A stretch of DNA of 64,000 bases, from positions 682,001 to 746,000 of the forward strand of contig NZ_OMOI01000002.1 of NCBI RefSeq assembly GCF_900302485.1, written 5' to 3'. The first letter of the stretch is position 1. Each line of letters opens with the position of its first letter. The stretch is from Aliiroseovarius pelagivivens. GTDB lineage: Bacteria > Pseudomonadota > Alphaproteobacteria > Rhodobacterales > Rhodobacteraceae. The position numbers and the translations under genes are program-made. This document shows, in pieces, positions 22,605 through 38,702 of the stretch. Below the pieces are notes generated by a model. It did no database searches and was not told where the DNA came from. It worked only from the letters and a program-made list of their open reading frames with translations.

Positions 22605-23008
22605 TGGAAGACAACACGATGAAAGTGCGCGACGTGATGCAGGGTCAGATCTATATGATCAGTGGTCTTGCGACGGTGCGCGAAGCTGTCAGCGAAATGA
22701 AAGCCAAGGGCGTGACGGCGCTGGTGATCGAACGCCGTCACGAGGATGACGAATACGGCATCATCTCGATCGACATGATCGCCGAGCGGGCGATTGCGAT
22801 GAACAAGTCTCTGGACCGCATGAATGTCTACGAGGTGATGGACAAGCCCGCCCTGACGGTGGCCGATCACATGGCGGTCAAATACGCGGTGCGTCTTTTG
22901 TCACGGCTGGATCACCGCCGCGCATTGGTGATCGAAGACGGCACCGCCTGCGGGCTGGTCACGTTGCGTGACATGGTGCTGAGCTATGCCGCCGAGCCTC
23001 AGGGATAG
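22604..23008 (+). CDS. CBS-domain pair protein
   Basis: This 134-residue protein consists essentially of two CBS motifs (KVRDVMQGQIYMISGLATVR and MNVYEVMDKPALTVADHMAV), the second followed by DHRRALVIEDGTACGLVTLR. CBS pairs bind adenine nucleotides and act as regulatory modules. The start is the ATG 7 bases after AAGGAGG, overlapping the PII-like stop; a GTG one codon earlier is also possible. As the last gene of the DUF1538 operon it is probably a second energy or nucleotide sensor for the same membrane complex. Confidence 0.85.
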   Translation: MEDNTMKVRDVMQGQIYMISGLATVREAVSEMKAKGVTALVIERRHEDDEYGIISIDMIAERAIAMNKSLDRMNVYEVMDKPALTVADHMAVKYAVRLLSRLDHRRALVIEDGTACGLVTLRDMVLSYAAEPQG

Positions 23009-23112: not shown

Positions 23113-24213
23113 TTAGTTCGCGTTCATGCGGTCGTTATGCTCGCGCAGGGTGTCCGAGATGATGGCGTACCATTCACCCGATTCACGCATCTCGTTCAGA
23201 CCTTTGTTCATCATTGCGACGTACTGGCGGCCAAACGGGTTGGTGCGGTGTACAAGGAATGCAAGCGACGACAGGGTGGAAACGAAGGGGTTTTCAACCA
23301 GATCGTTCTGGGTCAGGCCCATTTCGCTCATCGTGTCAGCGGCAAGCTGAACTTCGAACGACGCGGCGTCGGCGGTGCCGTTCAACACAGCATCCAGACA
23401 TTCACGTGCGGTTTTGGGGCGAAGTACAGTCACGTTCGAAACGTTGATGCCTTGTTCCTCAAGGTCGATCATGCTCCAGCCATCCATACGGCAGACCGTT
23501 GCACCTTCGAATTCCGCGAAGGTGGTCGCGTTGACATACGAGCTTTCCGGCAGGGTGTAGAAGCCACGAACCGTGTCATAGACGGGGACAGTCGCGTAGA
23601 ACTGCGTGCAGCGCGTGGTTGTCTCTTCCGACCACTCGTACGAGCGGTTGGTACAGTCAGGCATGGTCCATGCAATGGATACGTCGAACGCGCCAAGCGG
23701 CAGCAGCGTGCTGAGGTGTGCACCCCAGTCATCCACAAAGCTGACCGAGTAGTCGCGCGAGTTGCCAGCACGGTGAAGGCTGGTGGTGGCAATACGGGTC
23801 ATGAAACCACCGCCATTCAGCGATTCGTCGGTGAAGGGCGCCCAGCCGTTGCCGGTAACCAGGCGGATGGGGGGCTCATAGGCGTTCGAACGACGGGTGG
23901 ATTCAAAGCGGCTTTCTTCGGCTGCGATCACTTCCTGTGCGGAACGTCCGTCGGGCAGGCTGCCATCCTCACACGGAAGGGCCAGCACAAGACCCGGGTC
24001 AAGGTCGTTGGGGTTGGTCACGATGTTACGGTTCGCGTTGAAGATCGGCTGATAGTTCGAGGTGCCATAAGCCGTGATTGCGATCGTCGCCAGCGTGTCG
24101 CCGTCAGATACGGTATAGTTGGTACAGGCCTGCTGAGCGCTTGCCATACCAGCTGACAAAGCGACGGTGGCGGTCGTCGCGATTGCGAGCTTCTTCGCAG
24201 TTTGTTTAAACAT
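23113..24213 (-). CDS. secreted LysM plus solute-binding-type protein (short form)
   Basis: This 366-residue protein has a signal peptide ending ASA (residue 26). A LysM domain (about residues 30-80, NYTVSDGDTLATIAITAYG) precedes a family 3 solute-binding-type domain (about 115-350, starting RLVTGNGWAPFTDE). Six cysteines (30, 81, 187, 202, 241, 272) match those of the neighbouring paralogue in order and spacing; the first pair brackets the LysM. LysM domains bind peptidoglycan, and family 3 binding domains bind amino acids or similar ligands. No ABC transporter genes are nearby, so a sensory rather than uptake role is likely. It is the last gene of the twelve-gene locus, 39 bases after its paralogue. 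Confidence 0.82.
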   Translation of the reverse strand: MFKQTAKKLAIATTATVALSAGMASAQQACTNYTVSDGDTLATIAITAYGTSNYQPIFNANRNIVTNPNDLDPGLVLALPCEDGSLPDGRSAQEVIAAEESRFESTRRSNAYEPPIRLVTGNGWAPFTDESLNGGGFMTRIATTSLHRAGNSRDYSVSFVDDWGAHLSTLLPLGAFDVSIAWTMPDCTNRSYEWSEETTTRCTQFYATVPVYDTVRGFYTLPESSYVNATTFAEFEGATVCRMDGWSMIDLEEQGINVSNVTVLRPKTARECLDAVLNGTADAASFEVQLAADTMSEMGLTQNDLVENPFVSTLSSLAFLVHRTNPFGRQYVAMMNKGLNEMRESGEWYAIISDTLREHNDRMNAN

Positions 24214-24252
24214 TTCCTATCCTCCAGGTAGTCTTATCGGCCTGGAACGGCC

Positions 24253-25482
24253 TTAACTGTTGTCCATTTGGTGGCGCAGAGCGGTGGACACGATGTCCCG
24301 CCATTCGCCGGATTGTTGCATAATTTCCAGACCCCGATTCAGGATCTCAAGTACAGCTTCCCCATCGGGGTTGTTCACATGGGTCATCACGTTCAGACCC
24401 TTGATTGCCGCAAGGTTGGGGTTTTCGATAATCTCGTCCTGATAGCCAAGGCGGCTGATGGCCTCGACGGCAAGGTGCGCTTCGATCGCGACAATATCGA
24501 CGGTGCCGTTGGCAACGGCATCGAAGCAGGCATCGGGATCGATGGGACGGACCAAAGTGATGGCCGGTTCGTACAGGCCAACGGCGTCCATATGTGTCAG
24601 CGACCAGCCTTCAGGACGGCAGAATGTGGCCCCGGCAAAGTCTGCGTGACTCATCGCGACTTCATAGCCCGATCCGTTCTTTGCAAAGTAAGTGTCGACT
24701 ACCTCGTAGAACGGGTTCGAGAAGTTATAGGTTTCGCAGCGGGCGCGGTCATTCTCTGACAAGGCCTCGGCTTCTTCGCAATTGGGGCGTGACCAAGGGA
24801 ACGTTCCGTCGAAGGCCAGCGTGGGCATCAACAGATCCAGATGCGAATTCCAGTCGTTCACGAACTGGATCTTATAGGCCTGTTCGGGGGCGGCGCGCAG
24901 AAATGCGGTTTCCACCAGCTTGGTATAGAGGCCGCGATTGGGCAGATCTTCGTCGGTGAAGGGGGCGTAGTTGCCGCCTGTGATCAGCAGGATCTGACGT
25001 TCATCCACCGCTGACGTGCCCGGTTGTGCGGCCTTGCGGATCAACGCGGCCCCTTCGGCGCGGGCGGCTTCGATGGCAACAGCTGCTTGAGCATTTGCGG
25101 CGGCCACGGCCTCGGCGCTGGCTTTCTGGGCTTCAGTGATGGCAGCGATGGCGCGGGCCTCGGCTTCGGCGATCAGACCGGCGGACATTTCACGGGCCAT
25201 TTTTTCGGCCTCGGTGGTTGCTGCAGAGGTTTGACCGGCAGACGTGTCGCGGCAGGGGATCTCTAGGGTCATGCCCAAGCGAATGATGTTGGGGTCTTTC
25301 CCGATGGCGTCTTTGTTCGCGTTATAAATCAGCCGGAAATCCGTACTGCCGAATGCGCGCAAGGCAATCTCGCGTAGGCTATCGCCGCGTTCGACCACGT
25401 ATTTCGAGCAAGCCTCTTGAGCGAAGGCGGAACCAGTCATTGCAGTCAGTGCCAGACCGGATGCGAAGAAGAGGTTTCTCAT
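24253..25482 (-). CDS. secreted LysM plus solute-binding-type protein (long form)
   Basis: This 409-residue paralogue of the next gene has a signal peptide (to about residue 21) and a LysM domain (25-77, KYVVERGDSLREIALRAFG) closed by Cys25 and Cys77. An Ala/Glu-rich probable coiled coil follows (about 86-155, absent from the short form), then a family 3 solute-binding-type domain (about 163-405, LLITGGNYAPFTDEDLPNRG). Cys 235/249 and 288/319 match the paralogue. The coiled coil may hold the ligand-binding part away from the cell wall or mediate pairing. It is 33 bases downstream of the PP2C gene and on the same strand, so it is likely the periplasmic arm of the kinase/phosphatase system. Confidence 0.82.
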   Translation of the reverse strand: MRNLFFASGLALTAMTGSAFAQEACSKYVVERGDSLREIALRAFGSTDFRLIYNANKDAIGKDPNIIRLGMTLEIPCRDTSAGQTSAATTEAEKMAREMSAGLIAEAEARAIAAITEAQKASAEAVAAANAQAAVAIEAARAEGAALIRKAAQPGTSAVDERQILLITGGNYAPFTDEDLPNRGLYTKLVETAFLRAAPEQAYKIQFVNDWNSHLDLLMPTLAFDGTFPWSRPNCEEAEALSENDRARCETYNFSNPFYEVVDTYFAKNGSGYEVAMSHADFAGATFCRPEGWSLTHMDAVGLYEPAITLVRPIDPDACFDAVANGTVDIVAIEAHLAVEAISRLGYQDEIIENPNLAAIKGLNVMTHVNNPDGEAVLEILNRGLEIMQQSGEWRDIVSTALRHQMDNS

Positions 25483-25515
25483 GTTTCCTGTGGGTCCTCA
25501 GTTAGAAGCGTGGTT

Positions 25516-26301
25516 TTAGATATTCAGGGGTTTGATCACGGCGATCGTGATGTTGTCCTGATCAGGATGAGCTTTGGCCCGCAAGGCCTGCACAAGGGCA
25601 ACGGCAAGGTCGCGGGCGGGATGGTCTTTGTGGGCGTTGGCAAGGGCTTGGATCTGGTCATTGTCCAGATACTGAAGGCCGTCACTGGCCGCCAAAATCA
25701 CATCGCCCTTGGCCAGCTCGACCGCCGCTTCTGGGCAGTCCAGCTTGGGCACAGGTGCGCCCATGATCACCGAGGTCAGCTGATTGCGGTCGGGATGGGT
25801 GCGGGCCTCTTCCTCGGAGAGGGTTCCATCGGAGACCTGCGCATCGATCATCGGGGCCATGGAGTGGTCCTCGTTGATCTGCATCATGAAGCCACTGCGG
25901 CACAGATAAAGCGGCGAGTCACCGACCGATACCCAGTTCAACAGCTTCCCGCGCAACAGAACACCCAACAGGGTCGACCCCATTCGAAGCTCGGATCCGT
26001 TCTCTTCGAGATACGCCGCGACGGCATCATTGGTGCGCAGTGCGACCTGAGTCAGGCGTTCAGTGACCTGTTCATCGCTGCACCCACCGTCTTCCAGAAG
26101 ACCATCAAGTTCCGTCTGCCACGTGGCTTTTACCAGCCCCGAGGCGACGTCCCCGGCATCATGTCCACCCATGCCGTCTGCCACGACGACATATCCTGCA
26201 TCCAGAGCATCGAAGAAGCGCGCTGCAATAGCGTCTTCCTGCGCGTCCCGCTTGCCCTGATCAGCCACAAGGGCGATGTCATATGCAGGATTGGCCAACA
26301 T
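25516..26301 (-). CDS. PP2C-family protein phosphatase
   Basis: This 261-residue PPM/PP2C Ser/Thr phosphatase has all metal-site motifs: QGKRDAQEDA (Asp/Glu near residue 23), VVADGMGGHDAGDVAS (Asp42, Gly43), LAASDGLQYLDN (Asp207) and HPDQDNITIAVI (Asp249). No membrane segment is present, so it is cytoplasmic. It begins 2 bases after the FHA gene stop, and the Ser/Thr kinase lies just upstream in transcription order. Kinase, FHA and PP2C side by side is the typical signalling trio known from type VI secretion loci (PpkA, Fha, PppA), but no type VI structural gene is present here. It probably reverses the neighbouring kinase's phosphorylations. Confidence 0.93.
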   Translation of the reverse strand: MLANPAYDIALVADQGKRDAQEDAIAARFFDALDAGYVVVADGMGGHDAGDVASGLVKATWQTELDGLLEDGGCSDEQVTERLTQVALRTNDAVAAYLEENGSELRMGSTLLGVLLRGKLLNWVSVGDSPLYLCRSGFMMQINEDHSMAPMIDAQVSDGTLSEEEARTHPDRNQLTSVIMGAPVPKLDCPEAAVELAKGDVILAASDGLQYLDNDQIQALANAHKDHPARDLAVALVQALRAKAHPDQDNITIAVIKPLNI

Positions 26302-26303
26302 GC

Positions 26304-27230
26304 TTAGCGGTCCTGCCAGTCAAAGCTGTCGTCGCAGAACGCCACAAACCGCAAGGTGGTATCGCTGATGCGGATCATATCGCCGTTGGACAGGGGAACA
26401 GTGCTAAGTACCGGGCCACCATTCAGGCGTACCAAGTTGGCTTTGCCGCCGTGACCCAAATAACAGTTCCGATCTTCGGAGTTGTAAGCCACTACCGCGT
26501 GTCCGGCGCGCGAAATGCCGTTGTCGCCAAAGTCCAGCTGAACCGCTTGATCATCGTTGCGGCCAATCTGAGCCAATCCCTCGATCAGCGAGAAGCTGGT
26601 GCCACGACCCGGTCCATCTGTGATGACCAGCCACCCCACGGGGAAGATATTTTGGTCTGCCACCTGTTTGGAAACCGGAGCGGCCTCCATGCTGTCTTGC
26701 ACATGTGCGTCAGGACGCTCAAAGCCTAGGAACGTAGTTTTCACACGCTCGCTGCGGTCGGCTTTGGGGGCAGGGGCGGCCACTGGCGCAGGTTCAGGCG
26801 CGGCTTCTGCCACCTTCTCGACCTGCGGGACCTCGACAACTTCCGGCGCTTCCGTCAGCGCGATGTCTGGGGTCTTCCCAGGCAGATCTTCGGCCAGAAT
26901 TGTATTCAAAATCGCATCGGCGGCCTCATCCTCTGCCGAGAGGGCTTCCTCTTCAACAGGAAGCTCTTCGACTTCGAGCGGCGCGATTTCTTCGACGCGG
27001 ATTTCTTCGACTTGAACGTCTTCTACAACCAGCTCTTCCGCGGGTTCTTCAATCTCGGGTTCCGCTTCAGTGGTCTGATTGCCACCGGCCAGAACTTGAC
27101 GAAGGGCGTTTAGGTCCGCAATCGGTTCTTCCGCGGCCTCGTCGCGCTCTTCCTCGTGAGATTGGTCCTTATTCGCGTGTTTAGCGCTACCTTCAAGCAG
27201 CCGGCTTAGCGGGCTTTTGTATTTGAACAT
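26304..27230 (-). CDS. FHA-domain protein with acidic N-terminal tail
   Basis: This 308-residue protein consists of a long Glu/Val/Pro-rich, probably disordered region (about residues 15-165) and a C-terminal FHA domain (about 199-300). The phosphothreonine-binding signature is visible: IGRN (Gly223, Arg224) and ISRAGHAVV (Ser240, Arg241, His244). FHA domains bind phosphothreonine peptides, so it is the natural reader of the adjacent kinase. The chosen start is the ATG with AAAGGTGA upstream; a start ten codons earlier is possible. No enzyme domain is seen, so it probably acts as an adaptor. Confidence 0.88.
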   Translation of the reverse strand: MFKYKSPLSRLLEGSAKHANKDQSHEEERDEAAEEPIADLNALRQVLAGGNQTTEAEPEIEEPAEELVVEDVQVEEIRVEEIAPLEVEELPVEEEALSAEDEAADAILNTILAEDLPGKTPDIALTEAPEVVEVPQVEKVAEAAPEPAPVAAPAPKADRSERVKTTFLGFERPDAHVQDSMEAAPVSKQVADQNIFPVGWLVITDGPGRGTSFSLIEGLAQIGRNDDQAVQLDFGDNGISRAGHAVVAYNSEDRNCYLGHGGKANLVRLNGGPVLSTVPLSNGDMIRISDTTLRFVAFCDDSFDWQDR

Positions 27231-27427
27231 GGCAACTTCACCTTTCACTCTCTTCGCCAAGACGATGGCCTTGGTTCATGACGTATCATTCCAGCCGGGC
27301 AGAACGCCCTGACAGAGTTTGATGTGGATACTCGGTAACTTGCTAATTTCTGCGGCGGATCCAACTTCCGCCCGAGCCACTTTGGCCCACAGAGAACACT
27401 ATCTGGCAGTCAGTTCGATGGTTGGTG

Positions 27428-29485
27428 TCAGGATCCCCCTGCAAGCTGCATGGTGACCTGAACCTCGCCGCCTTCGCGCAAGGCGGTCAGGCGTGCTTGG
27501 GACACGCCGTCAGCAACAAGGGTTTCAAGAATACGATCAAGGTCCTCGGGCGCGCCGATGGATTGGCCGGTTGTTGTCTCAGTCAACAGGATGTCGCCTG
27601 GACGCAGCCCCTCGGCATAGTCAGCCGGGACACGTGTGACGCGAACAGCCCAATTGCCATTGTCGGCATTGCTGGCGGTCAGGCTGACGCCGTTCTCAAG
27701 TCCGAAGGTCCGCACTGCGGGCAAGGCCAGCAGACCGTTCAACGGGCGGGCGCTGCTGTTCGGGCGATACCGCGCGGCGGCGCGGATATACCCATCCGGG
27801 TCGACCTTCACATTATCCAGAATGCGCGCTGCGAAGCTGCTGTTGTCGGTGACGGGGTTGCCATTGATCGTATAGATCACGGCCCCACGGGCGACCCAAT
27901 CGCCAATGATCGACGTGTCTTGGTTGGGATCGACACGGGTGATCGCAACGGCACTGCCCGTAGACAGGCGGCGCGTGCTGGTGACGAAGGGAATCTCGAC
28001 GTCCCAGTGGCCGAAAGCGATTTGCTGTTTCAGCAGATCTTCAGCCGCGACGGGAGCAGGTGCCGGCACTGTTTCCACAGGTGCAGGCGTTGCGTCAACC
28101 ACTGCGATCGGTGCCGCGGTGTCTTCCACTGCGACGGGCGCGGCTTCAACAACGGGTTCGGGTTCAGCAACGGGTTCGGCTTCCGGTTCGGGCGCGGATA
28201 CAGCTGCGACCGGTGCCGGGGTGACCGCGGCCACTTGGACGGCCTCACCACCTTCGGGCGCGTCCGAACCGCTAAGGGCAAAGTATCCACCAGCCCCAAG
28301 CACCAGAAGCGCAATCACGCCAGCAATGGCCTTGCCGCCTCCGCCAGAGCTGCTTTTGACAACCGTGACAGAAGGGTCGTCTTTCGGCGCGGATTGCGTA
28401 AGCCCTTCCGACTGAGCGGTCGTTGCAACGTCATCGTCGCTGGACAGAAGCGCGGTAACGATCGCCTCGGCATTCTCGGAATCAGCCTTGGGCTCATCCG
28501 GGCGTTCGAGCGCCACAATGACCGAGCTGGGGCGATAGCCGAATTCCTCGAATACAACGGCGGGGCCACGGAACATGCGCAGCCATTCCAGCGCCGATTG
28601 AGGGCGGTTTACGATGTGTACTTCCATCGCCATGTCCAACGCCTTGAGGAAACCGTTGGGGTATCCTTCGAACCGGCCGGAAAGCGGGACATAGGGGTCC
28701 GCGCTACCTGCATTGAACGCATCCAAACGTGACTTGCCATCGACAGGGCGTTCGCCGCTGATGGCGTGATACAGCGTGGCCGCCAGTACATACAGATCGC
28801 TGGTCGCATCCTGATCCGCACCGCGTGCGTAAAACTCGTGAGGCGAATAACCGTCCTTGATCACCCGCAGCGTCAACAGAGCAGCCGAGCGATTCGCCGC
28901 CCGCTCTCGTGCTGCGCCAAAGTCGATCAGTACCGGTTGACCGTTTTCGTCGATCAGGATGTTGTCGGGCGAGATGTCGCGGTGGAGCATCCCGTTGTCA
29001 TGGATGAACGACACCGCCGACAGCATCTTTTCGGTGACCTTCACGATGAAGTCCGGTGTCACCGTATTGCGTTCATCCTGAACGTAATCCAGCAGGTCGC
29101 CGCCGTTGATCAGATCCATCGCGATATAGGCGGTCTGGTTGTCTTCAAACACCTGATGCACATTCACGATGTTCGGATGTACCAGACGTGCGTGATTCCG
29201 GGCTTCCTGAATGAACAGCCCGATAATTGATCTTAGATCTTCTTCATATGCAGGATCTGATGCCTCGACCTGGCTGCCGACACGACGGCACAGGGCGCCT
29301 GGGAAGCACTCTTTGATAACGACTTCCCGCTCCAGGCTGTCGCGCGCCAGGTAGGTGATGCCAAAACCACCATTGTTCAGGAAACGAAGGATCTCGTATT
29401 GGTCGCGCAGCAGCTTTTCGCCGGGCTGCAACGCTGCAATCTGGGGGTTTTCTACTTCCTGCCCCGATGCATGATTCTGGCTCAT
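27428..29485 (-). CDS. transmembrane Ser/Thr protein kinase with extracytoplasmic PDZ-like domains
   Basis: This 685-residue protein has an N-terminal Hanks-type kinase domain (about 28-310): glycine loop LNNGGFGITYLA, Lys58 in VVIKECFPG, Glu94 in the C-helix, catalytic loop MLHRDISPDNILID (Asp170), and DFG 188-190. The Lys usual in HRDxKxxN is Ser. One membrane segment (about 385-405) is followed by a Pro/Ala/Glu-rich spacer, then two PDZ-like domains (about 505-590 and 595-680; the second contains GLRPGDILLTETTTG). The topology puts the kinase inside and the PDZ part in the periplasm. It is 197 bases upstream of the FHA gene; with FHA and PP2C it forms a phospho-signalling unit, probably reading an envelope signal. 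Confidence 0.9.
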   Translation of the reverse strand: MSQNHASGQEVENPQIAALQPGEKLLRDQYEILRFLNNGGFGITYLARDSLEREVVIKECFPGALCRRVGSQVEASDPAYEEDLRSIIGLFIQEARNHARLVHPNIVNVHQVFEDNQTAYIAMDLINGGDLLDYVQDERNTVTPDFIVKVTEKMLSAVSFIHDNGMLHRDISPDNILIDENGQPVLIDFGAARERAANRSAALLTLRVIKDGYSPHEFYARGADQDATSDLYVLAATLYHAISGERPVDGKSRLDAFNAGSADPYVPLSGRFEGYPNGFLKALDMAMEVHIVNRPQSALEWLRMFRGPAVVFEEFGYRPSSVIVALERPDEPKADSENAEAIVTALLSSDDDVATTAQSEGLTQSAPKDDPSVTVVKSSSGGGGKAIAGVIALLVLGAGGYFALSGSDAPEGGEAVQVAAVTPAPVAAVSAPEPEAEPVAEPEPVVEAAPVAVEDTAAPIAVVDATPAPVETVPAPAPVAAEDLLKQQIAFGHWDVEIPFVTSTRRLSTGSAVAITRVDPNQDTSIIGDWVARGAVIYTINGNPVTDNSSFAARILDNVKVDPDGYIRAAARYRPNSSARPLNGLLALPAVRTFGLENGVSLTASNADNGNWAVRVTRVPADYAEGLRPGDILLTETTTGQSIGAPEDLDRILETLVADGVSQARLTALREGGEVQVTMQLAGGS

Positions 29486-29821
29486 TTGGTCTTACCTGCG
29501 TCTCTCGTTTTGGCAGAGGGAGTTCCCAACCGGTGGCGCAATTCAGCAAGGTAAATTCAACCATCGATGCCTCCGAAGTTAGACTTAGGAATTGAGACCA
29601 AACTGTGGCGGCCACATGGCTTCGCTATGACTCGAGGGGACAAAATAACCGATATAACTTCTTTGTTGCTGAAACGAAGAAGATACATTGATCACGGGTC
29701 CGATGACGGTCGCGGAATCCACATAAATCGAAGCCGCTTGCCAAGGTTTTATGGCGTGGCGGATAAGGTGATTCTGCTTGTAGTTGTTGCGCTACTGCAG
29801 GCAAGCCGCCGACTGCAGCGT
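29486..29821. other. intergenic gap between kinase and second small GTPase
   Basis: These 336 bases separate the small GTPase stop codon from the kinase start. Short open frames exist on both strands, but none has a ribosome binding site or recognisable motif. No terminator hairpin with a T run was found. The kinase probably has its own promoter here, making the locus two transcription units, though no clear -35/-10 pair stands out. Confidence 0.4.
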
Positions 29822-31162
29822 TTACCGATCCGACGACTGCGTTCCCGCCCAAGACAGATTGTCACTGAGCTGGGTCAGTACATTCAAAACAGTCTTGGTT
29901 GCTTGTGGAGTGTCTTCGTACTGCATCAGTGTCAGCAGGTCCGAGGCATTCTCGAACTCACCCACGATCCAATCAGCTGATGAATCAATGTTGCGGCCCG
30001 GCTCCAGTTTTTCGGTAAACTCTTCGACCAGTTCCTGACACCGGCTCAGCAGCTCTGCAGGCTCAAGGTCCGGCGTTTCGCGCAGCTCAAAGAGCAATGC
30101 ACGCATCGCAGCTTTCCAATCGTCAAGAACAGGGTTCTCTAGATCGGCTTCATCGGTGTTGAGTTCTGGTTCGGAAGCAGGAGCGTCGGCTGCCTCTGCC
30201 TCTGCCTCTGCCTCTGCTTCGGCTGCCGCCGCTGCCACTGCCGCTGCTGCTGCTTTCAAATCGGACTCGGCAGGCTCCTCGGCCATTCCCAGAGCTTCCA
30301 GTGCAGGGGTCAGTGTCGTCGCAAGATCCTTCTTGGCTTTCTCAAGGTCCCGCGATTTGCGATTGGCTGCCAAACCCAATACCCGGCGCGCCAGATCTTC
30401 GCCGCCACAAGAGGACCAGAGTTCGAAATCCGGTTCGGGCTCTTGCGCCATCGCCTCTACGGCGACAGGCGTGCCAATGGGAACAACGGCTTGAAACATG
30501 CCGTCGCTGTCGCGTTCCAGATGGGGCACCAGTCGTGGCAGGGATTCCCGCACCACCGGTAGGTCCGTATGGGTCACCGCAAGCAAGCTGTTTTCCTGAA
30601 GCTCTTGGGCAACATGCGACCACAGGAACCGTTCGGTTTCACGCCAAGCGTTGGTGCCGTTGGTGCACCAGATCGCGCAATCGACGAACTTCAACAGTTC
30701 TAGAGTCTGCTTATAGCTTTCATCCAGCGCGCCTGCGCCGGGAAGATCGAACAACACCAATTCCTGCAGTGCTTCCGAAGGCAATCCAACCGAGATGAAA
30801 TCAGGCTCTTGCGCGGCTGCTTTTTCCAGGTCGATCCCTGCAAAGCTTTCAGAAGTCTTGTTCCACCAGCCAGCCGTGGTCTCGGGGTCAGCGGCGTATT
30901 TCACGATCACCAAGGGAAGTTTCAGGTGCTGCGGACCCGTGGGCAGGATGTCGACACCTGCCAGCATATTCGCCAGACTGGACTTGCCCGCTCCGAATTC
31001 GCCGGCGAAGCCGATGGTTACGGCACTGGTCAGTTGGTCGATATGACCCCGAGCCGTTGCCCGCATGGATTCCAACGGGGCTGAGCTTGGTGCAGCCTCG
31101 GTTTTCGAGAGAAACGTTTTCAGTTGCCCAAGAACTGAGTCTGTTTCTGGAAAGTTGATCAC
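29822..31162 (-). CDS. small dynamin-superfamily-like GTPase, second copy
   Basis: This 446-residue protein has P-loop GEFGAGKS (54-61), switch II DLPG (139-142) and a G4-like THTD (197-200). It shares with the other small GTPase of the locus the unusual motif WCTxxTxAWRETER (residues 165-178). After the G domain comes a long Ala/Glu stretch (about 300-340) encoded by a hexanucleotide repeat, then a helical C-terminus. No long stalk or membrane-binding region typical of full dynamins is visible, so it may be a regulatory or partner GTPase for the large one. It overlaps the large GTPase gene by 4 bases (ATGA), suggesting they are made together. Confidence 0.82.
   Translation of the reverse strand: MINFPETDSVLGQLKTFLSKTEAAPSSAPLESMRATARGHIDQLTSAVTIGFAGEFGAGKSSLANMLAGVDILPTGPQHLKLPLVIVKYAADPETTAGWWNKTSESFAGIDLEKAAAQEPDFISVGLPSEALQELVLFDLPGAGALDESYKQTLELLKFVDCAIWCTNGTNAWRETERFLWSHVAQELQENSLLAVTHTDLPVVRESLPRLVPHLERDSDGMFQAVVPIGTPVAVEAMAQEPEPDFELWSSCGGEDLARRVLGLAANRKSRDLEKAKKDLATTLTPALEALGMAEEPAESDLKAAAAAVAAAAAEAEAEAEAEAADAPASEPELNTDEADLENPVLDDWKAAMRALLFELRETPDLEPAELLSRCQELVEEFTEKLEPGRNIDSSADWIVGEFENASDLLTLMQYEDTPQATKTVLNVLTQLSDNLSWAGTQSSDR
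30190..30219. repeat. in-frame hexanucleotide repeat
   Basis: Four copies of CTGCCT plus a fifth with one change lie inside the small GTPase gene, encoding alternating Ala and Glu residues. The unit is a multiple of three, so copy-number changes would alter linker length without shifting the frame. Confidence 0.8.
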
Positions 31163-33195
31163 GTTACCGCCTCGAGTCGCTGTTCAGGTTCGATACCCTC
31201 TTCGAACAACTCTTCCAACTCAATTGCAAGCCTCTTGGCATTTTCCAGTGCTGCATGCGCATCGGGCCTCGATGCGGGTTGGGCTTTGTCCAGCTCTTCG
31301 AACCGGGTCGCAAGAACCGCCAAGTGATGCTCCATAACCGTGTTCAGCCGCCCTGTCAGGTCAGACTGGAACTGATCAACCAGATCGGTCGCAATGGATT
31401 GGAACTCGCGCGTGATCATCTGTTCGGCGCGCGTGACGACGGATTGCTGTTTCAGCAGACGGGCCAACCAAGAGACACGCAGCTCGACCGTGATGCCACG
31501 GGTCAGGATGCCGGTGTCGGGGCGATACCAACGAAGCGCGCTGGCATCCACGTTCAACGGATTGTCCGCGTCACCCACACCACGTTCCGCCAGTGCCGCG
31601 TTCGACTGCATGTCCAATGCATATAGCTCGTTCAGCATTTTTTGGCGTTGGGCATGGGCAGAATCCAGCAACCGGTCGCGCATGATCTGGCGCAGATCGC
31701 TGAAGTCCAATTCCGTATTGCTCCCGGTGGACAGCAGCGGGGATACGCCATCGCGCCCTTGCACGACGTTCGAGACCATCGACTGGGCGATGTCATCAAG
31801 TTCCTGTCGTAGCGTGGCCATGTTCTGCCCGGAATCTTCGGTCAGGCGTTCTCGGGTTTCGTTCACAAGCTGGCTCAGCTGCGCACGCGTTTTATCTTCG
31901 GTCTGTGCGAAATGGGTTTCCGCGGTATCGTCATCCACGATTTTCAGATGGACGCGGCGGCGTTCCAGTTCGCTTGCGGCGAAGTTGCGCAGATGCTGAG
32001 CCGCAATGTGAATGCGTTCGCTGCGTGGGCCGTCCGACATTTCTCGGACCACGTGGCTGCGCAGATCCGGCAGGCCAGACGCAATCATTGCTGCCAACCG
32101 CAGCGCACTTTCGGCGGCCCCTTCCTTTTGCGTTCTCTTCAGCTGCTCGATCCCCTCAAGGAACCGCTGCATCTTCTGAGGATGTGCCTTCAACCAAGCC
32201 AGTATCTGGTCGTGGTCAATGCCGGTTGCGTCCCCGGTCAAAGCATAATGCGCCCATTGCGCGCTTCCCATGATCACCGTCATTTGGGCGCTGTCCAGCG
32301 CATGCTCAAGCCCGGCACGCACATCGGCATGGACGCTGGCGGCATCTTCGACACCACGGTTCAGTTCGTCCACCCGGTTCACAAAGACCACCATCTGCCC
32401 AAGCTCAAGCGCCTGCATCAAGCGAAACAGCTTCAGATCGGCCTGAGACAGCGCTTGGTGGGCGGATAGAACCACGACGAAGAAGTCAGAGTTGCGCAGG
32501 TACTGGTGCGAGATCTCTTCCCGGATGAGCAGCGGATCGTTGATGCCCGGCGTGTCCGTAACCGTAATTGGGAAGGGGAAATGACCTTGCCTGAAGAAGA
32601 CCTCGGCTTTGCGGGTCAGATCACTGTAGTAAGGCGCGGATACGGTATCCGTCTGCGCGGGCTGATCATCAGGGTCGGCGCCTGCGCTGACATAGCGGGC
32701 CAGATCTTCTTGCGTCAGTTCTTCCAGATCATGTGAAGTGCCCAGCAAATTCTCATAGCGTGCACCAAGTCGCGCCTTTGCGCGGGTTTTCATCGCCTCG
32801 ATCTGTTCTTCGATGATCTGCCGCTTATAGTTATCTTCCCCATCAGGAAGCAGGTCGCGGATTTCGTCCCCCTCGGACAAAAGCGCCTGCCATTGGTCGT
32901 TGTCGAAGAAGTGGAAAACGCCACCGCTGGTGCGGTTGGATGGGTGCCCGAAATGCATATCGGTCACAACCGTGGTCCAAGGGTTTACATCGGAGGGAAG
33001 GAAGTTAGCTTGCCCCGTGAAACCATTGATCAGGCGCGACTTGCCCGCCTTGATCTGGCCAACAAAGGCGACGCCGGGTTTCAGAGCTTTCAAGTCGGTT
33101 GAGATGCGCGAAATGAACGGCTGCGCTTCATCGCTGGCCGTCTGTTCCATTTGCTCGGCTATCCGAATTAATTCCTGTCGGCGAACCTCATCCAT
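31159..33195 (-). CDS. large dynamin-like GTPase, second copy
   Basis: This 678-residue protein has G1 GQIKAGKS (46-53), a G2-region LPSDVNPWTTVVTD, G3 DTPG (214-217) and G4 NRVD (273-276). A long helical region (about 350-678) follows, as in bacterial dynamin-like proteins. Near residues 566-582 there is a short hydrophobic/basic segment (VELRVSWLARLLKQQ) at the place where its paralogue has a Trp/Arg patch, a possible membrane-contact site. Bacterial dynamins bind and remodel membranes in a GTP-dependent way and often act as heterologous pairs encoded in tandem. The neighbour overlapping its stop is the small GTPase. A 76-base gap separates it from the upstream orphan gene. Confidence 0.88.
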   Translation of the reverse strand: MDEVRRQELIRIAEQMEQTASDEAQPFISRISTDLKALKPGVAFVGQIKAGKSRLINGFTGQANFLPSDVNPWTTVVTDMHFGHPSNRTSGGVFHFFDNDQWQALLSEGDEIRDLLPDGEDNYKRQIIEEQIEAMKTRAKARLGARYENLLGTSHDLEELTQEDLARYVSAGADPDDQPAQTDTVSAPYYSDLTRKAEVFFRQGHFPFPITVTDTPGINDPLLIREEISHQYLRNSDFFVVVLSAHQALSQADLKLFRLMQALELGQMVVFVNRVDELNRGVEDAASVHADVRAGLEHALDSAQMTVIMGSAQWAHYALTGDATGIDHDQILAWLKAHPQKMQRFLEGIEQLKRTQKEGAAESALRLAAMIASGLPDLRSHVVREMSDGPRSERIHIAAQHLRNFAASELERRRVHLKIVDDDTAETHFAQTEDKTRAQLSQLVNETRERLTEDSGQNMATLRQELDDIAQSMVSNVVQGRDGVSPLLSTGSNTELDFSDLRQIMRDRLLDSAHAQRQKMLNELYALDMQSNAALAERGVGDADNPLNVDASALRWYRPDTGILTRGITVELRVSWLARLLKQQSVVTRAEQMITREFQSIATDLVDQFQSDLTGRLNTVMEHHLAVLATRFEELDKAQPASRPDAHAALENAKRLAIELEELFEEGIEPEQRLEAVT

Positions 33196-33271
33196 AATCT
33201 GACTTCCAACTCGTTATAAAAATTAAATTACTGACCTGGCATCCAACGTGAACGCCAAGTTGTTACTGTAT

Positions 33272-34171
33272 TCAGCTTAAATTTTCGTGCGCCGTCAATG
33301 ATTTCCATAATTGTACGACCGAACCCAACCTACGCGTGTGGTGAGCGGCCATTGCTGTCGCATTAGTGTCGCGGCAGATGGTCAAGCTTGGCATATCCTG
33401 ACCCTGAGATCGCAAGATTATCAGCTGAGGACCCACGTCCTGTTGATCGCTGTCGGCGTCCCACGCCGACAAGTCGTCCATCAGCTGCTGCACGGCATCA
33501 ATGTTCTGCGTCAAAACCCCGTCAGGACCGGCAACCGTGGCGTCTGCATGATTAACCAAAATCCGTTGATCGCTGGCCTTCTTCGAGTTTGCGTAAAACT
33601 GTGCGGCGATGCCGTCGCCAATATCGTCATTGGCGGCTGGTTCTTCTGCTGGCGGGATTGCTGCCGGGGCCTGAACGGCAGGTGTGTCGTCGGCAGGCTC
33701 GGCCTCGACCGAAACTGGTGGCTCGGTTTGAGCAGGGGTCGGGGTCACAGGTTCGAGCGCGTAGATGGCGGCTTCGATCTTGGATATCTGCAAGCCCGTC
33801 GCGGCGATGTCGTCTTCGTTCTCGGGCGGGGTGCTGAAGATCTGGATGCCCGAGCCAGAGCAAACCATGTTCAGCATCTGGGCCACATGCTCGGCGGTGG
33901 TGTCGCGAAGGTTTGCTGGCTCCCCATCCATCATCGCTTCTGTCATGTCGGCCACACGGCCATTGTTGACGGTCAAGGTTACAGCGTCGTCCTGATCATT
34001 GGTGAACAGAATGATGCGGGGCAGGACCGTCGCACGCAACGTGCCGAGAGCCGCCTTGCTGCGGGCTTCGACCGTGGTTTGTGCCAAGTAAATGCTCTGA
34101 TCGCGTCGAGGTCTTGCGTCCTCTACGATGCGTTCGAGCTGATCAAGGATATCTGATTGGATCACAGCCAT
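33272..34171 (-). CDS. two-domain protein of unknown function in GTPase locus
   Basis: I do not recognise this 299-residue protein. It has two small globular parts (about residues 1-135 and 200-299) joined by a Pro/Ala/Glu-rich linker. The pattern PRIILFTNDQDDAVTLTV (from residue 51) recurs as PQLIILRSQGQDMPSLTI (from 248), so the two parts may be duplicated copies of one fold. No signal peptide, membrane segment or catalytic motif is seen. It lies 7 bases after the Roadblock-like gene and upstream of the second large GTPase, so it is probably a cytoplasmic adaptor or regulator. Confidence 0.6.
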   Translation of the reverse strand: MAVIQSDILDQLERIVEDARPRRDQSIYLAQTTVEARSKAALGTLRATVLPRIILFTNDQDDAVTLTVNNGRVADMTEAMMDGEPANLRDTTAEHVAQMLNMVCSGSGIQIFSTPPENEDDIAATGLQISKIEAAIYALEPVTPTPAQTEPPVSVEAEPADDTPAVQAPAAIPPAEEPAANDDIGDGIAAQFYANSKKASDQRILVNHADATVAGPDGVLTQNIDAVQQLMDDLSAWDADSDQQDVGPQLIILRSQGQDMPSLTICRDTNATAMAAHHTRRLGSVVQLWKSLTAHENLS

Positions 34172-34178
34172 CTCCTGC

Positions 34179-34607
34179 CTAAACCGCAGCCGAAATCATG
34201 TTCATGTTCGCTGCGGATTTGGCCAGCGCCAGCCCGACATTTGCGTGATCATCCGAGACAAAGCAGACCACATGATCCGGCTGGTCCGGTCGTCTGACAA
34301 GCAGATACAGGCGTTTGCCCGAGTAGATCGCGATCTCTCCGAAACCGGCGTCCTGTGCGTTGCCGCCATCTGCCAACAACTGTTCAATGGCGTGCACACC
34401 GCGTCCCAGAATTAGGTTGGCGATCGATGTCGACATGGCTTCAAGTGCGGCGATGCTTTCGGCATCGCGCCCCTGAATGCCCAGAAGAAACCCAGTTTGC
34501 ATATCGAGATAGCCCGCCGCCACGCAGTTCGGAACGGTCTGCATGCCAGCAGAAAGTGCATCGTCCAGCGATAGGGTTGCATCAGCCAAAGTGTTGGTTT
34601 GCATCAT
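34179..34607 (-). CDS. Roadblock/LC7-like protein
   Basis: This 142-residue protein has the alternating helix/strand pattern of the Roadblock/LC7 fold: an N-terminal helix (LDDALSAGMQTVPNCVAAG), strands around YLDMQTGFLLGIQGRD and GFGEIAIYSGKRLYLLVRRP, and a last helix (ANVGLALAKSAANMNM). In bacteria such proteins (for example MglB) control small GTPases. It lies between the two GTPase pairs, 5 bases downstream of the first small GTPase, so a GTPase-activating or docking role is plausible. The fold call rests on pattern only and not on a search. Confidence 0.55.
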   Translation of the reverse strand: MMQTNTLADATLSLDDALSAGMQTVPNCVAAGYLDMQTGFLLGIQGRDAESIAALEAMSTSIANLILGRGVHAIEQLLADGGNAQDAGFGEIAIYSGKRLYLLVRRPDQPDHVVCFVSDDHANVGLALAKSAANMNMISAAV

Positions 34608-34612
34608 GTATA

Positions 34613-36253
34613 CTACAGCACGTGCCAGACAGTGTCGCTGTCAGTTGCCGTGTCGCTTAGGGATTGCAGAGCGCCTTCGGACTGTTGCGCATGGTGATCA
34701 CGTGCACGGTCGTCGAAAAGCTTCAGGAATTTATCAAACTCATCGTGCAACGCAGCGGGATCGTCGATGTCTCCAAGGGTCGACAGGTGTTCGGCCCAAG
34801 CTTCGGATGCGCTTAGCGGTTTGGAATCCAGCAAGCTATAGACCGGCTGGTTCGAGGCCAAGCTGATCGGCTCGGCCGCAAGCGGTTGGTCGGCGTCATC
34901 GGCATTCACCGCATCGCTTTGACCACGGTCAGAGACCAGCTCAGCCACAGACGAGACCAGATGACTGGCATCCTCGTCTTCAACGTCTTGAGTCGGCTCC
35001 GGGGTTTCGTCGGCAGCCAGATCGCTCTGGGCTTCTACGTGTTCTTCCTCGATCTGGGCCGCTTCGATCTCGTCCCATTCGGAAGAGGTGTCGGCGTCAG
35101 TATCACCCTGCAATTCGGAGGCCTTGTCTACCAGAACAAGTGCTTCTGGCATTTCGTCATCCGCATCCGCGTCGGGTTCTTCCGAAACATGGAAGACGGA
35201 TTTCAGGTCTTGCATGTCCTGTTCTTTGTGGGCGTCACTTTGCACCCGAGCGCGCAACATTTCCGCTTCGTCCGCATCGATGCGCTGACGGGTCTCGGAC
35301 ACATCGCTTGCCCGAACGCCGCGACGAGGTCGGGCAGGGCGAATGCTTACAACATTGCCAGCACCCCCAGCCGTCGGTTCAGTTCCGGCGTCGTCTGAGA
35401 GGGACATGACGGGCGGGCTCCAGATGCGGGTTGAGGTCTCTTCCCCCAACTGAAGCGCATCGGTGCCTGTTTCCGCGCTTGTGCCGTCTTTTTGGTACCG
35501 TGCCAGCATATCTGCGCGCGCTGACATGATATCGGCGGTGATGGTCAGGAAGTTATCCACCAGCTTGCCGCCGCCGCTTCCAGCCCAAAGGTCTGAATGT
35601 TCTTCGCTGTCGCGCGCAAGGATCGCGTCGCGGGCAGAAATCATGATCGTACGGCGGAACATCTCGCCCGCCTCGCGGTTGATCCGGCGCAGAACTTTAG
35701 CCTGATCCGTTTCGTTCAGCGCATCTGCACGCGTCACCAGCAGAAGCGAGTTCTGCCGCAGACGTTTCGGCAACGATGCCCACGTAGCGCGCTCAGTTTC
35801 GCGCCAGGCTTGCGTCGAGTGAGTACACCACAAAACGCCGTTGGCCTGACCCACCGCGCGTTGCCACACGTCGGACGAGATCTTCGGGTCTGAAATGCCG
35901 GGCGTGTCGATCAGGTCCACGGCTTCAAGGATGTCCGCCTCCAGATAGACCCGCACGAAATGCGCGCCCTGTACACCGACCTCACCAATCTTGCTCAGTT
36001 CAATCGTTTCGCGGCTGCCGTCCAGATTCTGAACATAGGAAGGCTTGTTGCCCCAAGAGAACCAGATCGGAGGCAGTTGCGTTGCCGTGACCTGTGTGGG
36101 CAATGTTTCCTTTTTCAAAAGGAAGTTCAGAAGCGTCGACTTGCCTGCGCTGAATTCACCCATCAGGGCGAAGACCGGTTTACGGTGCGACCAGCGCTTC
36201 AGGCGCTTCCATTGTTCTGCTGTAACGATGCGGGGGGGAATGGATACTGTCAT
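34613..36253 (-). CDS. small dynamin-superfamily-like GTPase with long acidic tail, first copy
   Basis: This 546-residue protein has P-loop GEFSAGKS (32-39), G3 DTPG (116-119) and G4-like TRAD (174-177). The motif WCTxxTxAWRETER (142-155) is shared with the other small GTPase. The G domain ends near residue 250. Residues about 260-480 are very acidic and low in complexity, with several Thr/Ser followed by acidic residues (for example ETPEPTQDVEDEDAS). The last 60 residues look helical. The tail could be a substrate of the locus kinase and a docking site for the FHA protein. The start is only 5 bases downstream of the first large GTPase, so the two are surely cotranscribed. Confidence 0.82.
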   Translation of the reverse strand: MTVSIPPRIVTAEQWKRLKRWSHRKPVFALMGEFSAGKSTLLNFLLKKETLPTQVTATQLPPIWFSWGNKPSYVQNLDGSRETIELSKIGEVGVQGAHFVRVYLEADILEAVDLIDTPGISDPKISSDVWQRAVGQANGVLWCTHSTQAWRETERATWASLPKRLRQNSLLLVTRADALNETDQAKVLRRINREAGEMFRRTIMISARDAILARDSEEHSDLWAGSGGGKLVDNFLTITADIMSARADMLARYQKDGTSAETGTDALQLGEETSTRIWSPPVMSLSDDAGTEPTAGGAGNVVSIRPARPRRGVRASDVSETRQRIDADEAEMLRARVQSDAHKEQDMQDLKSVFHVSEEPDADADDEMPEALVLVDKASELQGDTDADTSSEWDEIEAAQIEEEHVEAQSDLAADETPEPTQDVEDEDASHLVSSVAELVSDRGQSDAVNADDADQPLAAEPISLASNQPVYSLLDSKPLSASEAWAEHLSTLGDIDDPAALHDEFDKFLKLFDDRARDHHAQQSEGALQSLSDTATDSDTVWHVL

Positions 36254-36258
36254 ACTTT

Positions 36259-38271
36259 TCAGGCCGCCTCGGTGCCAAGGTCTTTCAGGATATCACCCAA
36301 AAGCTCGTCCGGGGTTTTCGCAGGTTGAATGCCAGCCGCCTTCAAGGCTTCCTCGTCCAATTGCGCCTGTGCCGACTGCGAAATTCCCAGAAGTGTTTCT
36401 TGTTGCTCGATCATAAATTCTGCCAGCATGGCGCGGACATTCTCCAACACCGCCGCGATCTGGTTTTCCTCGATATCTTTGGTGATCGAGCTGGCTTCGG
36501 ATGCCACCAACCGTGTGTAATCGGCAGCGTACGAGGCCACGCCCTTGCGTCGTTGCCACCAACGGCGCCACCACGTGCTTTGCAGGTCCAGCGCAATGGT
36601 GCGGCCAATGGCAAGGGGGGGCGGAACGTTGGGAACGATTGGCGGTTCGATAGCAAATTCGCCCAGATGCTGCCCCAGCAGTTTGCGATACACAGACTCG
36701 ACGTCATGGGCAGCGGATTCGTACAGCGCGCCCACTTCCTTGCGCATTGCGCGGGCAAAATTGAAATAGGCTGATTTCTGAAGCGCGCGGAACCCGGCGG
36801 GGTCGTATTGCCACGTGCCGTCTTCGCCATTCTTCTCAAGATGCTCGATCAGTGATGCGGTGGCGCGTTTGATGAAGTTCTCTTCCGTGCGGGCCAGTCG
36901 CTGCATCACCGTATCGCGCAGTTTGGCTGTCAGCTCGGCCGCGCGAATCTCATAGTCGGAGGCCACAGTACGGATGGCTTCTTCTGGCGTCTTGCCGTCC
37001 AGATCGTAAACCATCGTGCCTGTGTCGGTCAGCGTCTTTGCAACTGATGTTGCGCGGATCTGGCTGGCCATGTTGCGGGCGCGGTTGCGCACTTTGTTGC
37101 ACAGGCGCGCGCCTGCGCCTTCTGCGATCCGTTCGTTGATGGACAGCAGCAGATCCGGCAAACCCGACAGGGCCCAGATATGGTCGAGCGACACACTATC
37201 GCTGTCGAACCCAGCCGCTGCATAGAGTTTGTTCAAGGACGACGCCGCGTGGTCAGTCAGCAGGTCTGAATTTCCGGTCAGGGCGGCTTCGGCCCAGATG
37301 GCGCTGCCGAAGATGACGCCGGCATCGGCGTTGATGCTGCTTTGCTTCAGCATTTCGTTCACGCGGTCGCGGATCTCGGGTACTTCTCGTACTGGGTCGT
37401 GAAGTTCGTCAATGCGGTTGATGAACAGGATAATCTGGCGGTTTTCAAACTGCGAAATCATGCGCATCAGCGCCAGGTCCATCGTGGTCAGGGCTTGGCT
37501 GGCCGCCATCACCACCACACAGACTTCGGATCCACGCAGGCTGCGCAGGGTGATCTGCTCGCGCACCATGAACGTGTCGTTCACGCCCGGTGTGTCGCTC
37601 AGATTGATCGCCATCGGATACTGCGGGATGTCCAGATACAGCTCGGCTGTTTTGGTCACATCCGCGAAGCGCCCGCTTTCGGCGCTGATGTCCGGATCGT
37701 CCTCATCCCCCATGCAGACATAGCGCTGAACAAGGTCATCGTCGAAATAGTCATACGAGTGGCTTTGACCCATGATCAGGTCGAAATGCTTGCCCAAACG
37801 TTCCTCGGAACGGGCTTTCATGTCTTCAACCTGACGACGGATGTCGTCCATTTCATCATCCGCTCCGGCGCGATGGGCCAGTTCACCCAGACGCCCGCCA
37901 CCGGCCGTCAGGTTCTGCCATTCATCATGATCGAAGAAGGTAAATTTTGCTTTGGTGTCACCCGGCGTGCGCGTGTTCACATGCAGGGTCGTTGCAACCG
38001 AGGTCCACGGGTTCACATCCGACGGCAACAGCCCCGGGCGCCCTGCCATGATATTCACAAGCGAGGATTTACCCGCCTTTACCTGACCAACAAAGGTCAC
38101 ATTTGCGGTGAATTCGTCCATCCGCGACTTCAGCTTGGCCAGCCGTGCCGAACTGCGCGCATCCGCAATAGCCGTCAGCTGGTCAATGGTCGCGTTTAAC
38201 CCGCCAAACGCTTCGTTTAGCGGGTCCAAGGCCTCATTCCCTGTGGCCAGTAGATGTATGTTTCGCGTCAT
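36259..38271 (-). CDS. large dynamin-like GTPase, first copy
   Basis: This 670-residue protein has G1 GQVKAGKS (62-69), LPSDVNPWTSVATT (82-95), G3 DTPG (226-229) and G4 NRID (285-288). A mostly helical region follows to the C-terminus. A striking WWRRWWQRR patch at 567-575 sits in the helical part and could insert into a lipid bilayer, as the paddle of bacterial dynamin-like proteins does. It is paralogous to the other large GTPase across its full length. It starts 2 bases after the first gene of the locus and ends 5 bases before the small GTPase. Confidence 0.88.
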   Translation of the reverse strand: MTRNIHLLATGNEALDPLNEAFGGLNATIDQLTAIADARSSARLAKLKSRMDEFTANVTFVGQVKAGKSSLVNIMAGRPGLLPSDVNPWTSVATTLHVNTRTPGDTKAKFTFFDHDEWQNLTAGGGRLGELAHRAGADDEMDDIRRQVEDMKARSEERLGKHFDLIMGQSHSYDYFDDDLVQRYVCMGDEDDPDISAESGRFADVTKTAELYLDIPQYPMAINLSDTPGVNDTFMVREQITLRSLRGSEVCVVVMAASQALTTMDLALMRMISQFENRQIILFINRIDELHDPVREVPEIRDRVNEMLKQSSINADAGVIFGSAIWAEAALTGNSDLLTDHAASSLNKLYAAAGFDSDSVSLDHIWALSGLPDLLLSINERIAEGAGARLCNKVRNRARNMASQIRATSVAKTLTDTGTMVYDLDGKTPEEAIRTVASDYEIRAAELTAKLRDTVMQRLARTEENFIKRATASLIEHLEKNGEDGTWQYDPAGFRALQKSAYFNFARAMRKEVGALYESAAHDVESVYRKLLGQHLGEFAIEPPIVPNVPPPLAIGRTIALDLQSTWWRRWWQRRKGVASYAADYTRLVASEASSITKDIEENQIAAVLENVRAMLAEFMIEQQETLLGISQSAQAQLDEEALKAAGIQPAKTPDELLGDILKDLGTEAA

Positions 38272-38273
38272 GT

Positions 38274-38702
38274 TTAACCCTCGGTACCGTTTAAAACATT
38301 CCTCAGACCAGTTTCCGTTTGCAGTTGTCCTGCGGGCAGAGCTGAAGGTGCGTCGATCAGCTCTACAAGATCAATGACATCCATGACCAGCTTCATTTCG
38401 GGCAAATCCTGCCGGATAGGTCCGTCTGGAATGTCCGCAAAGACACGAATGGTCTGAAACCGTTGACCGCTTTCAAGTTTGGCGATCTGCTCGCCTTTCG
38501 GAAAGCCATCCGACTTGTTGGCAGGAAGTGCCATCTTGGGATTGGCCAACATGTAATGGTCCCCTTGCAAGGTCACCAGCGACACACCAAAGCCGACCTG
38601 TGGGTACTCCGCGCTTAGATACTGCAACCTATCGCTGAGCCCTCGGCGCATGACGAAAGCTGCATTGGTCTGAATATCAACAACATTAGACGTAGCGTGC
38701 AC
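38274..38702 (-). CDS. small protein of unknown function, first gene of GTPase locus
   Basis: I do not recognise this 142-residue protein. It starts with GTG, 8 bases after GAGG. It has no signal peptide or membrane segment and reads as an alpha/beta protein, with strands around VGFGVSLVTLQGDHYMLANP and RFQTIRVFADIP, and a C-terminal helix/strand MKLVMDVIDLVELID. Being first in the operon and 2 bases from the first large GTPase, it is likely to act with that GTPase. It is not obviously similar to the Roadblock-like protein. Confidence 0.6.
   Translation of the reverse strand: MHATSNVVDIQTNAAFVMRRGLSDRLQYLSAEYPQVGFGVSLVTLQGDHYMLANPKMALPANKSDGFPKGEQIAKLESGQRFQTIRVFADIPDGPIRQDLPEMKLVMDVIDLVELIDAPSALPAGQLQTETGLRNVLNGTEG

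Follow-up and report, generated by a model that had tools for sequence, protein, structure and literature searches.

Among the 64,000 nucleotides of the alphaproteobacterium Aliiroseovarius pelagivivens analysed here (contig NZ_OMOI01000002.1, positions 682,001 to 746,000; hereafter the window, whose numbering is used throughout), positions 23113-38702 hold twelve open reading frames (ORFs), every one on the minus strand, which place four dynamin-like GTPases beside a Ser/Thr kinase, a PP2C phosphatase, an FHA protein and two secreted LysM proteins. We regard this locus as a real, conserved and apparently undescribed system made of known parts. A preliminary description made from the letters alone had listed twelve same-strand genes, among them four GTPases with intact P-loops. 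The ORFs bear this out, and the motifs of the kinase, the phosphatase and the FHA protein are intact as well. Its remark that the gaps are mostly tiny holds for most of them, which measure 2-76 bp or are overlaps (4 bp between g6 and g7), but not for g7-g8 (336 bp) or g8-g9 (167 bp). The features are as follows.

g1, 38274..38702, minus: 142 aa; first gene; a family of its own, in the same place in A-type loci (the twelve-gene form)
g2, 36259..38271, minus: 670 aa large dynamin-like GTPase, family A1; Dynamin_N 44.7 bits
g3, 34613..36253, minus: 546 aa GTPase; Dynamin_N 41.9 bits
g4, 34179..34607, minus: 142 aa Roadblock/LC7-fold protein with an MglB-like fold (predicted structure)
g5, 33272..34171, minus: 299 aa conserved two-domain protein; C-terminal half (~180-299) probably Roadblock-like
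g6, 31159..33195, minus: 678 aa second large dynamin-like GTPase; Dynamin_N 50.7 bits
g7, 29822..31162, minus: 446 aa GTPase with an acidic tail; Dynamin_N 41.1 bits
g7-g8 gap, 29486..29821, minus: 336 bp, non-coding, ahead of the kinase; probable separate promoter
g8, 27428..29485, minus: 685 aa Ser/Thr kinase; one transmembrane stretch (~386-404) and a periplasmic PDZ-like region
g9, 26304..27260, minus: FHA protein with a long, disordered N-terminal part
KTTFLGF in g9, 26721..26741, minus: residues 174-180; candidate phosphothreonine switch
g10, 25516..26301, minus: 261 aa PP2C phosphatase, Stp1-like
g11, 24253..25482, minus: 409 aa secreted LysM and family-3 solute-binding-type protein
g12, 23113..24213, minus: 366 aa secreted LysM and solute-binding-type protein; paralogue of g11

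GTPases, Roadblock proteins and signalling components

Motifs were checked in the window proteins and their A-type relatives (L033-L049), and domains were scored against the curated Pfam cut-offs (Dynamin_N 27 bits, FHA 20.7, PP2C_2 24). All four GTPases exceed the Dynamin_N cut-off with the scores given above, and the three motifs scored, G1, G3 and G4, are intact in g2 (18/18), g6 (18/18), g3 (17/17) and g7 (19/19). The profile of the large GTPase family matches the PDB entries 5owv (5.5e-12) and 2j68 (1.5e-8), which upholds the proposed kinship to Campylobacter DLP1/DLP2 and Nostoc BDLP1. The genes form side-by-side pairs, g2-g3 and g6-g7, and the same pairs recur in relatives; hydropathy finds no transmembrane stretch in any of the four proteins, and g3 ends in a long, acidic tail that reads as probably disordered. 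The preliminary description had called the partners of the large proteins small GTPases, and Dynamin_N and the intact motifs confirm them as GTPases, but with 546 and 446 aa they are hardly small. Residues 552-572 of g2 form a conserved stretch rich in W and R (WW/RR), in which P552, D562, W567 and W568 are invariant (15/15) and which could be a membrane-touching tip.

The g4 protein is supported as a carrier of the Roadblock/LC7 fold by its AlphaFold2 model (pLDDT 88.7), which displays the order alpha-beta-beta-alpha-beta-beta-beta-alpha and retrieves 108 chains at E<=0.001 in Foldseek, among them 3kye (3.6e-7) and MglB (6hjm, 3.4e-6); model and fold search thus agree with the earlier assignment as Roadblock-like. 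By sequence profile no Roadblock match to g4 was found in Pfam or the PDB, where the sole PDB hit (E 0.94) is irrelevant. In hhalign the g4 family aligns to the rbC family with an E of 0.0019 but a probability of 14%, and Robl_LC7 is matched by five of the nine rbC members (best 4.5e-4). The C-terminal domain of g5 probably adopts the Roadblock fold as well, a likeness newly recognised here. Of the two proteins previously described as orphans, g1 keeps that status as a family of its own without a Pfam match, but g5 belongs to the conserved core and probably contains a Roadblock-like domain. The notion that g1 might be a second Roadblock protein was rejected, as hhalign against the g4 family gave a probability of only 0.4%, and g1 stays unclassified.

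The kinase g8 passes the Pfam cut-off for Pkinase (105.6 bits), and the catalytic K, HRD and DFG are present in 18/18 proteins. In its family the periplasmic part is matched by PDZ_6 in 6/8 members (best 5e-5, the window protein reaching only 0.0089), in keeping with the periplasmic PDZ-like domains described before. Assignment to the PknB-type PASTA kinases was considered and dropped: Pfam finds no PASTA repeats in g8, the PknB_PASTA_kin model scores 136.6 bits against a cut-off of 450, and the periplasmic part resembles PDZ. The phosphatase g10 matches PP2C_2 with 35.6 bits and the Stp1 model with 132.7 bits, under that model's cut-off of 230; ADGMGG is conserved in 17/17 proteins, and the window protein also reads DQDNITIAV. 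The LysM and family-3 solute-binding domains of g11 and g12 score below the Pfam cut-offs; the two proteins form one family, and in the PDB the profile of this family hits LysM proteins at 1.4e-11 and amino-acid binding proteins at 2.9e-5, so that the LysM plus solute-binding reading stands. The window genome (G000) encodes a second kinase of the g8 family (C1:1117832-1118797, locus L157; 516 bits), and no GTPase, FHA or PP2C gene of these families was recognised within its 20-kb stretch.

The GTPase genes and the signalling genes probably constitute two transcription units, because the 336-bp gap between g7 and g8 carries a conserved block (29486-29821), common to Aliiroseovarius and Ruegeria, that is possibly a shared promoter or operator. 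The gap measures 327-341 bp in 15/17 other loci (the outliers are L047 and L049), and its alignment comprises ten rows, one of them (L085) misplaced. Consensus promoters and terminators did not exceed shuffled sequences (6 versus 5.9 and 17 versus 17.5, respectively), and an Rfam scan matched tRNA alone. Convergent with the locus, at 20727-23008 on the plus strand, lies a pair of neighbouring DUF1538 membrane genes and, after them, a PII-like and a CBS-domain gene; DUF1538 matches occur in 19/21 genomes of the genus.

Conservation and modular architecture

The twelve-gene order was compared with 17 further loci, one from Aliiroseovarius and 16 from Ruegeria, which represent every other genome in the order sample whose g6 match exceeds 820 bits. 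By tblastn all twelve genes occur in one order and strand in 16 of them; L045 gave no g5 hit by tblastn, a profile finds the gene, and with both methods the order is kept in 17/17, which exceeds what chance would give. Two loci (L036 and L042) have an extra copy of g12, and the codon-scored ORF caller misses genes that tblastn sees, for example g4 in L035, L039, L043 and L046. The homologues are thus not scattered without a conserved neighbourhood, and the unit first proposed from the window recurs in other Rhodobacterales. In Ruegeria a full-length g6 match is present in 54/54 genomes, with 56-60% protein identity to the window g6, and in 54/54, as tallied by eye, another match of the g2 type lies some 5 kb from it. 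Full-length g6 is found in 7/21 genomes of the window's own genus.

Within the order, the large GTPase (A1) profile matches 98/292 genomes (E <= 1e-40, best scores at least 732 bits each) and the kinase-domain profile 96 of the same 292 (E <= 1e-50). Both occur together in 90 genomes, the GTPase alone in 8, the kinase alone in 6 and neither of them in 188. The Fisher p is 1e-57; like all Fisher tests here, it takes no account of relatedness. The two genes lie within 12 kb of each other in at least 78/98 genomes, and four more (G013, G041, G097 and G148) show the kinase in the stretches read. In wider samples the hits number 2/385 for the class (E <= 1e-20) and 4/299 for the phylum (E <= 1e-15), all of them in the window's own taxonomic family.

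The locus belongs to a modular family, of which the full twelve-gene order, here called the A architecture, is the most extensive form. Under this form, besides the 17 loci above, 38/80 named loci show the order BIG2-sm3-(Rb4)-orf5-BIG6-sm7-kinase, in a set whose stretches end 10 kb past g2, before the LysM genes, and whose genomes are partly repeated. In the A-prime form a GTPase block without BIG6 lies beside a kinase-FHA-PP2C-LysM block, with the order or the orientation changed (Actibacterium L111; Defluviimonas L112, L113 and L117; Frigidibacter L114 and L115; Roseovarius aestuarii L125). The B form, kinase-FHA-PP2C-smB-bigB-sm3B-rbB-orfB, has all eight genes in order in 16 plus two loci and no LysM genes. 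The C form (L054-L060) alternates large and small GTPases, large-small-large-small, usually with a Roadblock gene and without the kinase, and the D form (L127-L130, L134) combines a large GTPase with Roadblock genes. It follows from these arrangements that the blocks shuffle as units and that the kinase is not needed for the GTPase block to persist. From the gene orders, the core modules are kinase-FHA-PP2C and large GTPase-small GTPase-Roadblock-orf5, with the LysM genes as an option tied to transmembrane kinases. In the D-like loci L050 (12060-13307), L051 and L122 a protein of 405-415 aa is encoded between orf5 and the large GTPase or close to them, and the copy in L050 has matches to ABC/AAA ATPase models.

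The tie between LysM proteins and kinase topology was assessed in the 61 of 88 distinct complete kinases that could be evaluated, under a rule (LysM seen, or at least 5 kb of downstream sequence) that slightly favours finding LysM. LysM solute-binding genes lie near 24/44 transmembrane kinases and 0/17 soluble ones; when the 16 Ruegeria loci are left out, the figures are 8/28 and 0/17 (p 0.017). Locus L172 reads KIN-LysM-LysM, with no FHA, PP2C or large GTPase gene in its 20-kb stretch, and L173 reads KIN-LysM x3-FHA-PP2C-smB-bigB. The occurrence of LysM genes beside transmembrane kinases only, together with the L172 set, supports a putative periplasmic partnership of the LysM proteins with the kinase.

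The locus has also been lost. In the Aliiroseovarius genome G673 (locus L153) the match to the window is present on either side but jumps from ~24432 to ~39546; what remains around the gap is g12 (94% identity), the last 61 residues of g11 and part of the cytochrome c gene. To judge from these remnants, about 15.1 kb of the locus is deleted, and this genome can do without it. For this relative the idea that the locus had recently been inserted at the window site was rejected, since the flanking remnants fit deletion; the locus was probably ancestral to the subclade of G673.

A candidate phosphothreonine circuit and its alternatives

The FHA protein g9, which may start at an ATG 10 codons inside its TTG-initiated ORF, scores 28.6 bits for the FHA domain, above the Pfam cut-off, and the GR and SxxH of the domain are kept in 18/18 proteins. 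Ahead of the domain, in an otherwise variable linker, it carries the sequence K-T-T-F-L-G-F at residues 174-180. The pattern [KRQ]T[TR]x[LIV]G[FY], with an invariant threonine, is found in 89/89 evaluable unique FHA proteins from both A- and B-type loci, although it was composed after viewing the alignment and many of the sequences are close relatives. It also occurs in 8/11 unevaluable FHA proteins and is absent from every other protein family encoded at the loci, GTPases, Roadblock proteins and kinases included. Its median distance is 59 residues before the FHA G-R, with one outlier of -11 that stems from an earlier G-R match. For some FHA domains a leucine or an isoleucine at position +3 is suitable. 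The corresponding motif of OdhI/GarA is ETTSVF and differs from the one seen here. In OdhI, PknG phosphorylates threonines in the N-terminal part, after which the protein's own FHA domain binds them (PMC2784874, in excerpt); control over PknG is exerted by GlnH, a binding protein, and GlnX, a membrane protein (PMC9769921, in excerpt). The motif in g9, newly seen in this analysis, resembles this switch and is a putative phosphorylation site.

We propose that the locus forms a single envelope-to-cytoplasm control circuit. The LysM/solute-binding proteins, held by peptidoglycan, would sense a small ligand or the state of the wall and act on the periplasmic part of the kinase, which would then phosphorylate the threonine of the K-T-[T/R]-x-L-G-F motif. 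The phosphorylated motif would dock onto its own or a neighbour's FHA domain, as in OdhI/GarA, and alter what the FHA protein holds, and the PP2C phosphatase would reset it. The output, the least certain step, would be the GTP cycle or the placement of the paired dynamin-like GTPases, with the Roadblock proteins as their regulators or scaffold, and the GTPases would remodel, tether or repair the inner membrane. As a gene set the circuit has good support, and as a switch it is plausible; the membrane remodelling and the link from kinase to GTPases we infer. Of the possible outputs dynamins are the likeliest, given that the kinase family has its most constant partner in the large GTPase. We give about an even chance to an envelope-sensing phospho-circuit with a dynamin-like GTPase output as a whole, and hold more tentatively that it is a new system in which a reversible phosphothreonine switch, built from wall-bound sensors, kinase, FHA protein and PP2C, governs inner-membrane remodelling by Roadblock-set paired dynamins. 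The envelope-sensing, phosphorylation-controlled membrane-remodelling system of the preliminary description therefore survives in its composition and conserved neighbourhood, but its twelve genes are one arrangement among several.

It is conceivable, if unlikely, that the signalling genes form a metabolic or transport switch of the OdhI/GarA type, in which the GTPases are scaffolds or unrelated passengers. The amino-acid-type solute-binding proteins, the kinase and the FHA motif fit a GlnH-PknG-OdhI design, and several kinase loci (L157, L158, L166-L169, L171 and L172) have no large GTPase in their stretch; yet it is with the large GTPase that the kinase family is most consistently associated (90/96 kinase genomes), and no metabolic enzyme recurs within the conserved order. 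We think it rather unlikely that the locus is an anti-phage or conflict system, whose dynamins would guard or repair the membrane after phage attack on a trigger from the kinase circuit. PADLOC, whose model set gives no cut-off, returns weak and partial matches of the GTPases to LeoBC (4e-11 to 5e-4) and LeoA (g2, g3 and g7) and a weak match of g8 to PD-T4-6-type kinases, and both the patchy presence (98/292 genomes) and loss by deletion would suit defence. Against this, the presence in 54/54 Ruegeria genomes at 56-60% identity does not fit the pattern of typical defence genes, which are exchanged rapidly, none of the twelve proteins was found to contain a nuclease or another killing domain, and no defence genes were recognised adjoining the window locus.

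Still less probable, in our judgement, is a polarity or spatial scaffold akin to MglA/MglB or the Streptomyces conservons, which would place envelope machinery rather than bend membranes: MglB and a Streptomyces Roadblock protein are among the best structural matches of g4, but the GTPases match Dynamin_N and not the small MglA/Ras class, and they are paired as large and smaller proteins in the manner of bacterial dynamins. The threonine-phosphorylation pathway of type VI secretion, PpkA-Fha1-PppA, comprises a transmembrane Ser/Thr kinase, an FHA protein and a PP2C phosphatase, the same three domain types, and the preliminary description had drawn this comparison. That the trio is a type VI regulator that drifted beside dynamin genes is nevertheless highly improbable: TssB (PF05591) has no match in the window's own genome, which rules out membership there, and among the 292 genomes it occurs in 33/98 with the GTPase and 46/194 of the others (Fisher p 0.094). 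The partners of the trio here are also different ones. The envelope-to-cytoplasm circuit with a probable dynamin output remains the reading that we prefer.

Relationship to known systems

The preliminary description knew of no account of such a system, and searches of the open-access full-text literature aimed at it found none; PMC11237479, in excerpt, contains no mention of dynamin. Each half of the locus resembles known kinds; once demonstrated, the joined circuit would be categorically new. To our knowledge, the structures and membrane activities of bacterial dynamins are known and their cellular on-switch is largely open. By tying dynamins genetically to a kinase, a phosphatase, a phospho-reader and envelope sensors, the locus makes this question testable in marine bacteria that are culturable and non-pathogenic.

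On the GTPase side, Cj-DLP1/DLP2 of Campylobacter and BDLP1 of Nostoc likewise have Dynamin GTPase domains and operon gene pairs (PMC6104087, in excerpt). Here there are two pairs, each of a large protein and a smaller one with an acidic tail, and Roadblock proteins and a phospho-signalling unit stand alongside. The LeoBC/LeoA systems of the PADLOC models also encode dynamin-type GTPases in adjacent genes, with partial matches only, and we know of no kinase, FHA or Roadblock protein there. MglA/MglB of Myxococcus and Thermus share Roadblock/LC7 proteins encoded with GTPases, as well as the fold match to g4, but the partner GTPases here are of the dynamin type and not small and Ras-like. Roadblock/LC7 proteins are encoded with GTPases in the Streptomyces conservons too, whose kinase is a histidine kinase and not, as here, a Ser/Thr kinase.

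The nearest signalling analogue is the GlnH-GlnX-PknG-OdhI/GarA pathway of Actinobacteria, which likewise combines a secreted amino-acid-type solute-binding protein, membrane signalling, a Ser/Thr kinase and an FHA protein whose FHA domain is preceded, on the N-terminal side, by a motif of double-threonine type (PMC9769921 and PMC2784874, in excerpt). If the proposed circuit is true, this style of signalling gains a membrane-shaping output. In contrast to that pathway, the kinase of the present locus is itself a membrane-spanning protein with PDZ-like parts in the periplasm, the binding proteins carry LysM, and a PP2C phosphatase forms part of the set; the motif reads K-T-[T/R]-x-L-G-F, and the locus adds dynamin-like GTPases and Roadblock proteins.

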